A stretch of 12,852 nt of DNA, taken from Opitutia bacterium (GTDB taxonomy: Bacteria > Verrucomicrobiota > Verrucomicrobiia > Opitutales > Opitutaceae). Under the pieces are notes generated by a model, which saw nothing but the letters and a program-made list of their open reading frames with translations, was not told where the DNA came from and searched no databases. Shown here one piece after another: positions 1,834 through 8,141 of the stretch. The position numbers were made by a program, and so were the translations under genes. Position 1 is the first letter of the stretch, and the number at the start of each line of letters is the position of its first letter. Location of the stretch: positions 1-12,852 of the forward strand of contig PMKA01000154.1 in NCBI GenBank assembly GCA_003157575.1. The letters run 5' to 3'.

Positions 1834-1919
1834 AACCTGGATTCCGCAGTTGAGGCGGAATCCACTCGCTCACGCTCGCGGCCACAAGGAATGGAAGCCT
1901 CAACTCGGGAACCCAGGAC
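1834..1919. repeat. Palindromic element family 2, intergenic copy A
   Basis: This is an imperfect palindrome of about 82-86 bp. Its left terminal arm is AACCTGGATTCCGCAG followed by TTGAGGC (1834-1856). The right arm (1897-1917) is the inverted counterpart GCCTCAACT…GGGAACCCAGG. The centre carries TCCACTCGCTCACGCTCGCG (1861-1880), a second partial inversion with GGAATGGA. The same element, inverted, occurs at 7022-7107 with only a handful of differences. Here it lies in the 279-bp divergent gap between the phosphoribosyltransferase and the DUF362 gene. It has no stop codons in several frames, which creates false N-terminal extensions. I do not recognise a named family. Confidence 0.85.
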
Positions 1920-2068: not shown

Positions 2069-3022
2069 ATGAAAAGCCGCCGTGATTTCCTCAAGACTGG
2101 GCTCGCGCTCGGCGCCACCTTGTCGATCGCCACCCGGAAGAACATCTTTGCCGCCGAGGCGCCCGCAAGTGGCGAAGCCGCTCCGGCGCCCGTCACAGCA
2201 TCCGCCGCGGCCAGGCCCGTGCTCGTCGCCGTGCGAGACGGCAGCCGGACTGCAATGCTCGACCAGGCGCTGGCCGCGCTCGGAGGCATCGGGACCTTCG
2301 TCAAAAAAGGCCAGACGGTCCTTGTGAAGCCCAACATCGGCTGGGACGCACCGCCGGAGCGCGGCGCCAACACCCACCCGGAGCTCGTCGGTCACCTCGT
2401 CAAACTCTGCCTCGATGCCGGGGCGAAATCCGTCAGCATTTTCGACAACACCTGCGACCAGTGGCAGAGGACGTACGGAAACAGCGGGATTGAACGGGCC
2501 GCGCGGGATGCCGGCGCCATCGTCGTCAACGGCAAGGACGAGAGCCTCTACCGCGAGGTCGAGATACCGGGCGGCGTCAAACTGAAGCAGGCAAAGGTGC
2601 ACGGACTGGTGCTGGACAGCGACGTCTTCTTCAACGTGCCGGTGCTCAAGCACCACAGCGGCTCCCTCATGACGGCGGGGATGAAGAATCTGATGGGCGT
2701 GATCTGGGACCGCGGCGCCTATCATCGCGCCGATCTGCACCAGACGATCGCAGACTTCCTCACCTTCAAGAAGCCCACTCTCACCGTGCTCGACGCCTAC
2801 CATCCGATGTTCCGCAACGGCCCCCGCGGAGTCTCGGTGGAGGACGTCGTCGAGAAACGCATGCTCTTCGCCTCGACCGACATCGTGGCGCTGGACGCCG
2901 CAGCAGCGAGACTGCTGGGTCACCAGCCCTCGGATGTGCGGCATGTGAAGATCGCCGATGAGATGAAGCTGGGCACGATGGATCTCAATCAGGTCGAGAT
3001 CCGCCGGTTTAATCTGACTTGA
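2069..3022 (+). CDS. Tat-exported DUF362 domain protein
   Basis: This 317-residue protein has a twin-arginine signal at its N-terminus: MKSRRDFLKTGLALGATLSI, with the RR motif at residues 4-5, a hydrophobic stretch, and a probable cleavage site near AAEAP. The rest is a DUF362 domain: VLVKPNIGWDAPPERGANTH, PELVGHLVKLCLDAGAKSV, FFNVPVLKHHSGSLMTAGMK, NLMGVIWDRGAYHR and a C-terminal STDIVALDAAAARLLG. DUF362 is of unknown biochemical function and often sits with or is fused to ferredoxin domains. This copy has no cysteine cluster motif of its own, but the very next gene is a polyferredoxin overlapping it by 3 bases. The Tat signal suggests that the protein folds, perhaps with a cofactor, before export to the periplasm. 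No clear Shine-Dalgarno site precedes ATG 2069. The domain call is firm; function is unknown. Confidence 0.9.
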   Translation: MKSRRDFLKTGLALGATLSIATRKNIFAAEAPASGEAAPAPVTASAAARPVLVAVRDGSRTAMLDQALAALGGIGTFVKKGQTVLVKPNIGWDAPPERGANTHPELVGHLVKLCLDAGAKSVSIFDNTCDQWQRTYGNSGIERAARDAGAIVVNGKDESLYREVEIPGGVKLKQAKVHGLVLDSDVFFNVPVLKHHSGSLMTAGMKNLMGVIWDRGAYHRADLHQTIADFLTFKKPTLTVLDAYHPMFRNGPRGVSVEDVVEKRMLFASTDIVALDAAAARLLGHQPSDVRHVKIADEMKLGTMDLNQVEIRRFNLT

Positions 3023-4782
3023 ACCGCCGTCTGAAACTGCTCCGCGTCGGCGTGGCCCTGGCGATCTTCGCCGGGCTGACGGCGGCGTTGGCGGACTTTC
3101 GCGGCGCGATCCCGCCCCGCGTCGGGCACTGGCTCGCCTCAGCGCAATTTGTGCCTTCGCTGGTGGCGCTGATCGCCGGGACTGCCTTTGGAATCGTCGC
3201 GCTGGTCATCCTGCTCGTCACTCTCGCGGCCGGCCGCGTGTACTGCTCCGCGATCTGTCCGCTGGGCATCCTGCAGGACGTCATCGCACGCGTCTCCTCG
3301 TGGTGGCCCGGCCGAAAGCAGCCGCGCCAGCGCTACGCTCCGCCATCCACGTGGATCCGGCAGGCTGTGCTCTGGGTGACGGTGGCCGGGGTTGTCGCGG
3401 GCTGGGGCGGCCTCGCCCTGGCGGCGTTCGATCCGTACAGCAATTTCGGCCGGATCACCTCGGGACTGCTCCGCCCCGTGCTCACCCTCGCGAACAACGC
3501 GGTCGTGGGTCCGGCAAATGCGGCCGGCCTCACCGCCCTTTACCGGGTCGAGCCCCATTGGGCCAGTTTGTGGGTGCTGCACCTTCCGATCCTGCTTTTG
3601 ATCGTGCTCGTCGTGCTGGTCGTGTGGCGGGGGCGGCTCTACTGCAACACGCTCTGCCCGCTCGGAACATTGCTCGGCATGTTCGCCCGCAAAGCCGCGT
3701 TCCGGCTGGAAATCGACAAGAATGCCTGCACCAAATGCGCCGCCTGCATGCGCATCTGCAAGGCGCAGTGCATCGAGCTGCGAAGCGGCGCCATCGATTT
3801 CTCCCGTTGCGTCACGTGCTACGATTGCATCGGCGCGTGCGACAACGGCGGTATCCGCTACCGCTGGACGTGGCGGCGCCGGAAGCCTGTGACAAGTCCC
3901 GCGAAATCCGAGGGAATTGTAGGAGCGAGCTTGCTCGCGACCCCGCCGAAAGCACCGCCTGCCCCTCGACACGCTTGGGGCACTGAGCTTGTCGAACGGG
4001 CAAGCAGGCTCCAACAGCGGAATGAATCCGGCTTGGCCGGAATTCCCCCGGCGACTCCCGTGCCTTCCGGCGACGTCCCCGACCCGGCCCGGCGCGCGTT
4101 CATCGCGGGCGCAGCGACGGCTCTGGCGGTTTCCATCGCCGGAAGCGCGCGCCTGCAGGCGGGGCCGCAGGCTCATGATCGCGACGCGGAGGAACCCGGC
4201 AGGGACCGTCGCGCAGGCCCCTACACGCGCACGATCTGCCCGCCGGGTTCCGGCGGCATCGACCGGTTCCTCGACCGTTGCACAGCGTGTCAGTTGTGCG
4301 TGAGTGCGTGTCCCACCCACGTGCTTCAGCCCACCTGGGCCGGCTATGGCCTCGCCGGCATCATGAAGCCCCGGATGGATTACTCGATTGCGTTCTGCAA
4401 TTTCGAGTGCCGGATCTGCGGCGAAGTCTGCCCCACCGGCGCGATAACGCTGCTTGCCCTGGCGGAAAAACAGGTCACCCAGATCGGCGAGGCCCATTTC
4501 GACGAGAAGAAGTGCATTGTCATCGTCAAGAGTACCGACTGTGCGGCCTGCTCCGAGCACTGTCCCACGAAGGCGGTCTACACAGTGCCCTACGGGGACA
4601 ATCTCCGCCTGCCCAAGGTCAATCCCGTCCTCTGCATCGGCTGCGGCGGCTGCCAGTACGCCTGCCCCGCCCTGCCCGAGAAAGCCATCACAGTCGCGAG
4701 CCGCAATCTGCACGGGCGGGCCGAGAGACCTGTCGAACAGAAGGTCGCGCCTCCCGCCTCCGCAGGCGATTTCCCATTCTAA
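3019..4782 (+). CDS. Membrane polyferredoxin, NapH-like membrane domain plus C-terminal ferredoxin domain
   Basis: This 587-residue electron-transfer protein begins at TTG inside the TTGA that ends the DUF362 gene, so the two genes overlap and are probably translationally coupled. Residues 1-210 form a NapH/MauN-like membrane part of about four to five helices with two CxxxCP motifs (VYCSAICPLG, C76/C80; LYCNTLCPLG, C209/C213). Two [4Fe-4S] motifs follow: C237/240/243/247 and C264/267/270/274. A linker at 300-332 is encoded by an inserted REP-type repeat. After it comes a Tat-like hydrophobic segment (DPARRAFIAGAATALAVS, from 355). Four more cluster motifs follow: C421/424/427/431, C460/464/467/471, C499/508/511/515 and C539/542/545/549. 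The whole could carry six [4Fe-4S] clusters and move electrons across or along the inner membrane, probably to or from the neighbouring DUF362 protein (inference). From memory, Bacteroidetes have single-chain relatives with the same order of parts, so the fusion itself is not an accident; the repeat-derived linker is the odd part. Confidence 0.88.
   Translation: MNRRLKLLRVGVALAIFAGLTAALADFRGAIPPRVGHWLASAQFVPSLVALIAGTAFGIVALVILLVTLAAGRVYCSAICPLGILQDVIARVSSWWPGRKQPRQRYAPPSTWIRQAVLWVTVAGVVAGWGGLALAAFDPYSNFGRITSGLLRPVLTLANNAVVGPANAAGLTALYRVEPHWASLWVLHLPILLLIVLVVLVVWRGRLYCNTLCPLGTLLGMFARKAAFRLEIDKNACTKCAACMRICKAQCIELRSGAIDFSRCVTCYDCIGACDNGGIRYRWTWRRRKPVTSPAKSEGIVGASLLATPPKAPPAPRHAWGTELVERASRLQQRNESGLAGIPPATPVPSGDVPDPARRAFIAGAATALAVSIAGSARLQAGPQAHDRDAEEPGRDRRAGPYTRTICPPGSGGIDRFLDRCTACQLCVSACPTHVLQPTWAGYGLAGIMKPRMDYSIAFCNFECRICGEVCPTGAITLLALAEKQVTQIGEAHFDEKKCIVIVKSTDCAACSEHCPTKAVYTVPYGDNLRLPKVNPVLCIGCGGCQYACPALPEKAITVASRNLHGRAERPVEQKVAPPASAGDFPF
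3917..4015. repeat. REP palindrome pair (R2) embedded in the polyferredoxin coding sequence
   Basis: The left arm 3917-3941 begins TTGTAGGAGC and contains the hairpin GCGAGC-TT-GCTCGC. The right arm 3998-4015, read on the minus strand, is GTTGGAGCCTGCTTGCCC, in which the second half of the stem has decayed. The arms belong to the same family as R1 and R3, but here they are separated by about 56 bases that contain a different palindrome (3962-4001). The block lies in frame within the interdomain linker of the Fe-S protein and encodes about 33 residues (…VGASLLATPPKAPPAPRHAW…). Confidence 0.85.
3962..4001. repeat. Nested imperfect palindrome of a different sequence type
   Basis: The inverted ends TCGACA (3966-3971) and TGTCGA (3990-3995) extend to imperfect arms TCGACACGCTTGG and, on the other strand, TCGACAAGCTCAG. 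The sequence is unlike the REP arms that flank it, which suggests one repeat landing inside another. Similar TTCGACA…TGTCGAA-type repeats are, from memory, dispersed in several high-GC genomes; no named family is asserted. Confidence 0.6.
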
Positions 4783-4817
4783 TGCTCCATTGCAGCGGTT
4801 CTTCGTTTCGTATGGAA

Positions 4818-4875
4818 TTGTAGGAGCCTGCTTGCAGGCGATAGGGTTGCATCGCTTGCGAGCAAGCTCCTACAA
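4818..4875. repeat. REP palindrome pair (R3) upstream of rsmE
   Basis: Two 25-base arms in inverted orientation, 4818-4842 and 4851-4875, are separated by eight bases. Both read TTGTAGGAGC at their outer end. The left hairpin stem is GCCTGC-TT-GCAGGC and the right, read inwards, is GCTTGC-TC-GCAAGC. Of the three differences between the arms, two are the two sides of one base pair (C:G versus T:A), so the hairpin is conserved while its sequence varies. It lies in the 119-bp gap between the polyferredoxin and rsmE genes, both on the plus strand. Confidence 0.9.
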
Positions 4876-6721: not shown

Positions 6722-7471
6722 ATGAAGACGAAGCCCACCGCCCGCAAGACCTCCACGAAACTCTCCGCATCCGCAGAACCTGCGGCCAAGCTCGACCTCG
6801 GGAAGATCTTCCGGGCCGAGTATCTCGCACCCCGCAAGCCGGTGGTTCTCGACACCGCGCCCGCCCGCTACCTCGCCATCGAAGGCACGGGCGCTCCAGG
6901 CGGCGACGTATTTCAAGCGAGGATCGGCGCGCTCTACTCAATCGCATTCACTGTGAAGATGACGCGCAAGTTCTCCGGCGAACAGGACTACTCGATATCC
7001 CGGCTGGAGGCGCGCTACATGAATCTAAATTCCGCGGTTGAGGCTTCCACTCCTCGTGGCCGCGAGCGTGAGCGAGTGGATTTCGCCTCAGCTGCGGAAT
7101 CTAGGTTGAATCTCGGGGACGCCCCGCTCCCGCCGGCCCACCAGTGGCGCTGGCAACTGTTCATCCGCACCCCGGAGTTCGTCGCTGCGGACGAACTCGT
7201 GCGGGCGGTGGCGGCCCTGCGCAAGCGCGGCAAGGAAGGCGAGGCCGCGCTGGTGCACCTCGAATCGATCGCCGAGGGGCGCTGCGTGCAGATGCTACAC
7301 GTCGGCCCGTACGACAAGGAGTGCGACACCGTCGCCACGATGAAACAGCTCGCCGCCGCCCGGGGACTGCGCTTTGCCGGGCCGCATCACGAGATCTACA
7401 TTTCGGATCCGCGGCGTGTCGCACCGGCAAAGCTCAAAACCATCCTGCGTTTCCCGGTCGTGCCGGTGTGA
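6722..7471 (+). CDS. GyrI-like small-molecule-binding protein carrying an in-frame repeat insertion
   Basis: This 249-residue protein has a low-complexity leader (about residues 1-25, rich in Lys, Thr and Ser) followed by a stand-alone GyrI-like domain of the COG4832 type. Matching stretches are LDLGKIFRAEYLAPRKPVVL, YSIAFTVKM, HQWRWQLFIRTPEF, QMLHVGPYDKE and HHEIYISDPRR…LKTILRFPV. The next gene is a recognisable paralogue, and alignment by eye shows one extra block here: residues 101-129, between LEARYM and GDAPLPPAHQWRW. This block is exactly palindromic element B. Some GyrI-like proteins are reported to hydrolyse cyclopropanoid natural products and give self-protection; others only bind ligands. 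Which applies here is not known. Genes upstream and downstream are 31 and 52 bp away on the same strand. The insertion is in a loop and the flanking frame is intact, so the protein is probably still made. Confidence 0.85.
   Translation: MKTKPTARKTSTKLSASAEPAAKLDLGKIFRAEYLAPRKPVVLDTAPARYLAIEGTGAPGGDVFQARIGALYSIAFTVKMTRKFSGEQDYSISRLEARYMNLNSAVEASTPRGRERERVDFASAAESRLNLGDAPLPPAHQWRWQLFIRTPEFVAADELVRAVAALRKRGKEGEAALVHLESIAEGRCVQMLHVGPYDKECDTVATMKQLAAARGLRFAGPHHEIYISDPRRVAPAKLKTILRFPVVPV
7022..7107. repeat. Palindromic element family 2, in-gene copy B
   Basis: The inverted terminal arms are AATCTAAATTCCGCGG + TTGAGGC (7022-7044) and GCCTCAGCTGCGGAATCTAG + GTT (7085-7107). The centre contains the inner inversion TTCCACTCCTCGTGGC / GCGAGCGTGAGCGAGTGGA. 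Reverse-complemented it aligns with copy A at 1834-1919 over its whole length. AATCT occurs at 7022-7026 and again at 7109-7113, 87 bases apart, that is exactly 29 codons; this may be a target duplication or a micro-homology. It has no stop codon in the frame of the host gene. Confidence 0.9.
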
Positions 7472-7523: not shown

Positions 7524-8141
7524 ATGGCAAAAGTGAACGTTAGAAAAGAACTGAAAACCCTGTATGAGCCTCCCTCAAAGGAGGTCGTTCGCATTGAAGT
7601 CCCGGCGATGAATTTTCTAATGGTTGACGGCGAAGGAGACCCGAACTCCTCCCGACAATTCAAAGAAGCCGTCGAAACCCTCTATTCGCTTTCTTACACT
7701 CTGAAGTTCATGGTCAAGAGAGGCCCCAAGCGCATCGATTATGGCGTCATGCCCCTGGAAGGGCTGTGGTGGTCCGAAGACATGTCGACGTTCACGGCCG
7801 GCGACAAATCCGGGTGGAAATGGACGATGATGATCATGCAGCCCGGATATATTTCCCGGGACTTGGTTGATGCCGCCATCGTTGAAGTGAGAAAGAAGAA
7901 AGACCCTGTGGCGCTTCGCAAATCGAGATTCGAGACGTTTCAAGAGGGACTCGTTGCGCAGACAATGCACATCGGCCCGTTCTCCGACGAGGGGCCGACC
8001 GTTCAACGGGTGCATGCGTTCATTGACGGCTGTGGCTGCAAGCGTTCGGGGAAACACCATGAAATCTACTTGAGCGATATCCGGAGAGCCGATCCCAAAG
8101 GATGGAAGACCATCATCAGACAGCCGATGATCGGGGCCTGA
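7524..8141 (+). CDS. GyrI-like small-molecule-binding protein, uninterrupted paralogue
   Basis: This 205-residue protein is a single GyrI-like domain of the COG4832 type. Clear stretches are RIEVPAMNFLMVDGEGDP, ETLYSLSYTLKF, RIDYGVMPLEGLWW, WKWTMMIMQPGYIS, AQTMHIGPFSDEGPTV and HHEIYLSDIRRADP…WKTIIRQP. It is a paralogue of the preceding gene without the 29-residue insertion and without the Lys/Thr leader. Such proteins bind, and in studied cases sometimes hydrolyse, small hydrophobic molecules; the substrate here is unknown. Base composition differs from the neighbours to the left. Lines 7561-7620 and 7621-7680 have 29 and 34 G+C of 60, against 48 of 60 at 1081-1140 and 46 of 60 at 3361-3420. 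It may therefore have arrived separately rather than by local duplication. The start is fixed by AAAGGAG. Confidence 0.88.
   Translation: MAKVNVRKELKTLYEPPSKEVVRIEVPAMNFLMVDGEGDPNSSRQFKEAVETLYSLSYTLKFMVKRGPKRIDYGVMPLEGLWWSEDMSTFTAGDKSGWKWTMMIMQPGYISRDLVDAAIVEVRKKKDPVALRKSRFETFQEGLVAQTMHIGPFSDEGPTVQRVHAFIDGCGCKRSGKHHEIYLSDIRRADPKGWKTIIRQPMIGA

Follow-up and report, generated by a model that had tools for sequence, protein, structure and literature searches.

Dispersed palindromes that enter bacterial genes are known from several systems, described here as far as the cited passages go. Rickettsia palindromic elements (RPEs), of about 150 bp, lie in frame in unrelated genes, to whose products they add a peptide (PMC10969869); RPE sequences are described as carrying CGTC at one of their ends, and RPE-4 and RPE-6 are counted among the CGTC families (PMC3733652). 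Repetitive extragenic palindromes (REPs) are shorter (20-40 bp), carry a GTAG tag at one end and are tied to RAYTs, and in-frame GTAG palindromic repeats within open reading frames (ORFs) have already been published for Opitutus terrae, which belongs to the same phylum as the genome studied here; more than half of the intragenic GTAG or CGTC inserts are dimers or groups encoding 20-30 residues (PMC3733652). Bacterial miniature inverted-repeat transposable elements (MITEs) are sequences of 70-300 bp that have inverted ends, encode no transposase and occur as many dispersed copies (PMC3733652).

The window, by which we mean the whole 12,852-nucleotide stretch analysed, belongs to an Opitutia genome (G000) of 546 contigs and 73.6% completeness. 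The block inside its GyrI-like gene is a real hairpin-forming repeat, confirmed at the place where the original prediction, made from the window alone, had put it: the RNA fold reaches -51.9 kcal/mol (z -6.7 against shuffles; DNA z -3.8), and an Rfam scan at gathering thresholds returned no match. The limits first given, 7022..7107, do enclose a repeat, although the best-supported ones are those of Table 1; the AATCT repeats at its ends lie 87 bases apart, as had been noted, and the further copy expected near position 1834 is real. That second copy, 90% complementary to the first over 78 nt, lies between divergent genes, upstream of the likely ATG of a phosphoribosyltransferase-like gene (Pfam), and three of the five bases of its flanks (TTTGT/TTCAT) agree. 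Taken together, the evidence set out below makes it very probable that an 82-bp miniature transposon, non-autonomous and presumably moved by a transposase acting in trans, entered the GyrI-like gene in frame and added 29 codons to it; the resulting peptide would be tolerated.

The element is a nearly complete palindrome. Twenty full copies (18 from G000 and two from G005, a genome of the same genus) align over 82 columns with a mean identity of 87% (alignment A1), and their consensus has 21-bp ends, CCTAGATTCCGCAGTTGAGGC, and a centre with GTAGC(C/T)GCGAGCGTGAGCGAGTGG. The ends read CCTARATTC, and GTAG is present in the centre only. With its terminal inverted repeats, target duplication, small size, lack of a transposase gene and dispersed copies, the 82-bp element fits the description of a MITE; it differs from such MITEs as NEMIS, RUP and ERIC in being a near-complete palindrome, in forming a whole number of codons together with its duplication and in having an open frame on both strands. 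The likeness to RPEs that had been drawn from the sequence holds for in-frame insertion into unrelated genes, seen in six of 27 two-ended copies, but a MITE that has terminal inverted repeats and duplicates 5 bp of its target is the better description: its length of 82 bp, its CCTARATTC ends without a CGTC tag, the duplication and a host of another phylum set it apart from RPEs as the cited passages describe them. With the GTAG REPs of O. terrae, in the form in which that source presents them, it has the GTAG core in common, located in the element's centre, and it differs from them in its 82-bp length, long inverted ends, target duplications and, among the G000 model matches listed, the absence of any link to a RAYT.

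Table 1. Features of the element, of the window around it and of the ORFs and related elements considered in the text.
Feature	Position	Strand	Basis and remarks
GyrI-like gene (PF06445); ORF insertion 1	6722..7471	+	249 aa; Pfam
Uninterrupted GyrI-like paralogue	7524..8141	+	205 aa; Pfam; pairwise alignment, 32% identity to the 6722..7471 gene
Palindromic MITE-like element, 82 bp, within GyrI-like gene	7024..7105	+	Model R1 match 1-82, 100 bits; alignment A1 (20 copies)
Left terminal inverted repeat, TCTAAATTCCGCGGTTGAGGC	7024..7044	+	21-mer pattern search, 3 mismatches
Right terminal inverted repeat, outside-in CCTAGATTCCGCAGCTGAGGC	7085..7105	-	21-mer pattern search, 1 mismatch
Element centre, core GTAG/GTGG-C(C/T)GCGAGCGTGAGCGAGTGG	7045..7084	+	Core also solo and as tandem arrays at other sites of the genome
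5-bp direct repeat (target duplication), left copy, ATGAA	7019..7023	+	4 of 5 bases in common with right copy
5-bp direct repeat, right copy, TTGAA	7106..7110	+	Flank comparison
Second copy in the window	1836..1917	-	Model R1, 97.8 bits; inverted repeat I1
ORF insertion 2: MBL-fold hydrolase			Pfam
ORF insertion 3: RskA-like anti-sigma factor			Pfam
ORF insertion 4: hybrid histidine kinase, between receiver and Hpt domains			Pfam
ORF insertion 5: HypF, 121-bp version, after acylphosphatase domain			Pfam
ORF insertion 6: periplasmic binding protein of G005, at start, probably signal peptide			Pfam
Larger MITE-like elements of G002 and G004	L201 1428-1586; L202	L202 minus	21-bp end matches

Several other repeats accompany the element. 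Its centre occurs in tandem arrays with units from about 30 bp upward (L040, L043, L050, L052, L054, L155 and L161), and at L159 (816-890) tandem centre repeats lie in frame in the YjeF_N match of a protein that fuses YjeF with NAD(P)H-hydrate dehydratase. Some copies house another hairpin repeat (CCCCTCGAC...CTCGGGGCCTTGAGCCTGTCGAAACGG-like) in their centre, at a roughly constant site after GTGAGC (L021, L043, L044, L048, L151 and L154). The window further contains a distinct REP family (GTAGGAGCCTGCTTGCAGGCGAT) at 1292-1354, 3915-3941 and 4816-4875; the REP at 3915-4020 lies inside a 587-aa 4Fe-4S ORF (3019-4782), in frame and apparently in a linker. Elsewhere in the genome, a REP of the 1292-1354 family flanks the RAYT locus of contig C98 (L194), likely the RAYT engine of that REP itself.

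Searches of the genome and its relatives, as had been proposed, established that the element is not confined to the two window sites. BLAST at E<=10 gave at least 79 matches in G000 (40 of 130 candidates scored) and a covariance model at E<=0.1 at least 110 (150 of 3,615 candidates scored), both lists mixing full, partial and centre-only matches with opposite-strand double counts; with such numbers, the block is not a product of chance. The 21-mer end alone, with up to three mismatches, was found 26 times in forward and 25 times in reverse orientation in the same genome, some of these matches lying outside two-ended copies, against 0 and 0 for the reversed control. Contig C199 also gave end matches, which were set aside as a pair of similar stretches running the same way and separated by 1,116 bp.

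The distribution outside G000 is narrow. At E<=1e-6, BLAST over 38 genomes detected the element in G000 and G005 only. Scanning 150 genomes of the family with the model (30 candidates scored in each, under stricter filters) yielded matches at E<=0.001 in at least 21 genomes, but among the matches listed the strong full-length ones were confined to G000 and G005, two genomes of one Opitutia genus, and the best score elsewhere was 37 bits, compared with 78-104 for good copies, many of these matches being centre-only. A pattern scan of GTDB genomes, which required near-exact ends and which most diverged copies would escape, returned 40 stretches, one of them (L108, a G005 contig) matching the consensus. 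One two-ended G005 copy has a perfect 5-bp repeat, and the same stretch is present in the public record PLOH01000070.1 (Opitutia bacterium isolate fen_1464). The element was not found at E<=1e-5 in the plasmid and phage collections searched. Within the genus, the 21-bp end matched once in G002 and once in G004, with no match in G001 or G003. The G004 and G002 matches belong to larger MITE-like elements (about 202 and 159 bp, limits by eye) with similar ends and a different interior; perfect TTCAA repeats flank the one in G004, and the one in G002 has no perfect repeat.

The target duplication was assessed on 27 two-ended copies picked by hand and by eye (25 from G000 and two from G005), truncated and tandem copies being left out. 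At a single fixed offset, picked after an earlier test on 23 copies, 81 of the 135 positions in the flanking 5-mers agree, whereas re-paired flanks agree at 55.8 on average and 77 at most, none of the 20,000 re-pairings being as high as observed. The earlier test, which took the best of 49 offsets and included two copies with wrong limits, gave values as high as observed in 6 of 2,000 permutations. Copy by copy, agreement is complete in five cases and amounts to four bases in seven, three in five, two in four, one in five and none in one, so that in 10 of the 27 copies at most two of the five positions agree, which counts against a duplication. The duplicated target is frequently NTSAN. Eleven copies have NTSA on both sides, and every one of them has the same S base in its two flanks (six G, five C), as a duplicated target, unlike longer inverted ends, would lead one to expect. 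A 31-bp remnant on contig C453 has, by eye, CTGAA on both sides.

Element and duplication together make 82 + 5 = 87 bp, or 29 codons. The consensus has one open frame per strand (LDSAVEASAPRSRERERVDSASTAESR and LDSAVEAESTRSRSRLRGAEASTAESR), its other frames containing stops; single copies vary, and in some a stop is missing from one of these further frames. No stop interrupts the open frame in 24 of the 27 copies on the plus strand and in 25 on the minus strand. Intergenic copies share this openness, and selection for coding is therefore unnecessary to account for it. When the copies were tabulated by location and phase, as had been suggested, six proved to lie inside ORFs (called with a codon score that was trained on the loci themselves, no annotation being used), all six in the open phase (Table 1). 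A TGA stop of a neighbouring predicted ORF falls within the duplication in six of the 27 copies, a TAG stop is supplied by two, and 12 touch no predicted ORF. A seventh flagged ORF, at L014, was set aside: the predicted ORF, of 396 aa and in another frame, runs across the element close to the ORF start and is tentatively read as an over-long start call, while a second, O-antigen-ligase-like ORF ends within the element in the open frame. Three loci from an earlier ORF screen are likewise uncounted, namely L005, a TTG-started N-terminal extension with a likely ATG downstream, and the array loci L040 and L054.

The claim that the palindrome lies wholly inside the coding sequence at 6722-7471, in frame and adding 29 residues, is supported by many further copies, by the five further ORFs interrupted in the same phase, and by orthologues that do not have the block. 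This empty-site comparison covers three genes: those for the GyrI-like protein, the anti-sigma factor and the hybrid kinase. The closest GyrI orthologue, in G019, matches residues 13-101 and 131-248 on contiguous DNA, such that exactly 29 residues are absent, and on this basis the insertion-derived part of the protein corresponds to residues ~102-130; the finding that would have told against an insertion, orthologues carrying the same 29 residues, thus did not occur. The G005 anti-sigma orthologue is also shorter by exactly 29 residues, with a single ATTGA at the site where G000 has ATCGA and ATTAA, each one base off. Orthologues of the hybrid kinase in four genomes of the genus (G001, G003, G004 and G005) differ by the same 29 residues, a figure also given by the alignment coordinates in G002. 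Counting against the insertion reading, alignment coordinates of more distant relatives give differences of 30 (G024), 27 (G023) and 27 (the paralogue in the window) for the GyrI-like protein, and of 23 (G018) and 32 (G031) for the anti-sigma factor; a stop interrupts the GyrI match in G002, which provides no clean length figure. The MBL-fold gene had no orthologue but itself in 38 genomes at E<=1e-10. The adjacent paralogue at 7524-8141, proposed as the uninterrupted half of a natural experiment, does lack the block in the alignment, but at its level of identity it is a weaker comparison than the orthologues.

It is far more certain that the element is a MITE duplicating 5 bp than which transposase family moved it. 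Published ends of ISEcp1, of the IS1380 family, are CCTAGATTCTACGT and ACGTGGAATTTAGG, and its direct repeats measure 5 bp, or 4-5 bp in some cases (PMC7864471, PMC2887853). Over the first 9-10 bases, the left end CCTAGATTCTACGT and the reverse-complemented right end CCTAAATTCCACGT, as given in the relevant passages of these papers, equal the two common end variants of the element, CCTAGATTC and CCTAAATTCC, while the inner bases differ; this likeness was proposed first and checked afterwards against the published ends, which lessens its weight. Direct repeats of 5 bp are common to both (PMC7864471, PMC2887853), and the element itself differs in having no transposase gene. Because of its CCTARATTC ends and 5-bp duplication, we consider IS1380 the most likely engine family, at a level of confidence somewhat above even. 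A profile search for the PF13701 transposase gave no match in G000, a genome 73.6% complete, and a single match above the cut-off among the six genus genomes, in G004. There, an IS1380-type insertion sequence (L195, 1361-2856) has an open transposase frame and a perfect 5-bp repeat, CTTAG. Its ends agree with those of the element at 12 and 13 of 21 positions, but 18 of 8,466 positions of the locus score 12 or more, and the resemblance is thus weak.

The history of the insertions may be envisioned as follows. The element would have been moved by a transposase supplied in trans, for which the IS1380 (ISEcp1) family is the likeliest source; insertions into genes in other phases would mostly bring stop codons and then be purged, and the surviving copies would be those in linkers or loops, those at which the duplication keeps a TGA stop codon and those between genes. 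The extra peptide would be translated and tolerated rather than functional.

Under a different scenario, which we regard as improbable, GTAG-type REPs, as a dimer or cluster, make up the element and a RAYT (a Y1 tyrosine transposase) moves it, as in O. terrae, so that neither a MITE nor a DDE enzyme is involved. The GTAG-tagged core in the centre, found also solo, in arrays and, weakly matched, in further genomes of the family, speaks for it, as do five Y1_Tnp matches in G000, but the ends are 21-bp inverted repeats rather than GTAG, and the copies as a set show 5-bp duplications, for which IS200/IS605-type enzymes are not known. The five contigs with Y1_Tnp matches carry no element copy among the model matches listed (flanks of four of the five read), and the RAYT of contig C98 is flanked by a different REP, GTAGGAGCCTGCTTGCAGGCGA. 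Inverted ends alone would be compatible with a RAYT, some RAYT genes being flanked by long inverted repeats unrelated to REPs, and O. terrae is the species with the most intragenic GTAG repeats in the passages of the source concerned (PMC3733652).

More weight, though still well short of an even chance, attaches to the possibility that the element did insert but that the GyrI-like protein is now dead, the open frame being a coincidence of a young insertion. One open frame in a GC-rich palindrome of 82 bp would not be rare, and the openness of nearly all copies, intergenic ones included, points the same way. A dead gene fits less well with an ORF that is intact on both sides of the insert and retains conserved GyrI motifs, or with six ORF copies that are all in the open phase. 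Moreover, the alignment to a solved homologue, 3b49, runs to its residue 82 and resumes at 96, the break coinciding with the insertion site, which places the insert in a poorly conserved stretch of the protein; an AlphaFold model of the two window paralogues (pLDDT 41.8) was too poor for use. That the 29 residues are instead ancestral and were lost from the orthologues and the paralogue can be given almost no credence: loop lengths do vary in the GyrI-like family, but the element's sequence stands at dozens of unrelated sites, with direct repeats as a set, and the closest orthologues of three different genes are without exactly 29 residues. An artefact of assembly or binning is no easier to credit, since the fragmentation and incompleteness of this metagenome-assembled genome and the N runs inside some copies are set against many different flanks and the two-ended G005 copy with its perfect repeat, found again in a public record.

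Among open-licence papers, searched by title and the start of the abstract, no description was recognised of this element or of an IS1380-type MITE in the group. The original prediction, which knew of no description of this sequence, agrees with these searches, but in-frame GTAG palindromes had already been reported for O. terrae (PMC3733652). Within the scope of these searches, what is new is that inverted ends, a 5-bp duplication, an insertion step of 29 codons and uninterrupted orthologues in sister species occur together; novelty lies in that step and in the probable engine, in-frame palindromes themselves being known.

Ever since the Rickettsia elements were discovered, it has been puzzling how palindromes can enter the proteins of bacteria and not destroy them. 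Here, a target duplication can be seen, sister species have uninterrupted orthologues, and the sum of 82 and 5 offers a simple mechanical reason for the preservation of the frame. More tentatively, and with doubt outweighing confidence, a whole-codon unit open on both strands would mean that about one-third of intragenic insertions, in either orientation, give a peptide-extended protein and not a knockout, and repeated insertion may have been a source of linker segments in anti-sigma, signalling and hydrogenase-maturation proteins of the genus. With this element, the insertion, phase and tolerance of such palindromes could be measured in a host other than Rickettsia.
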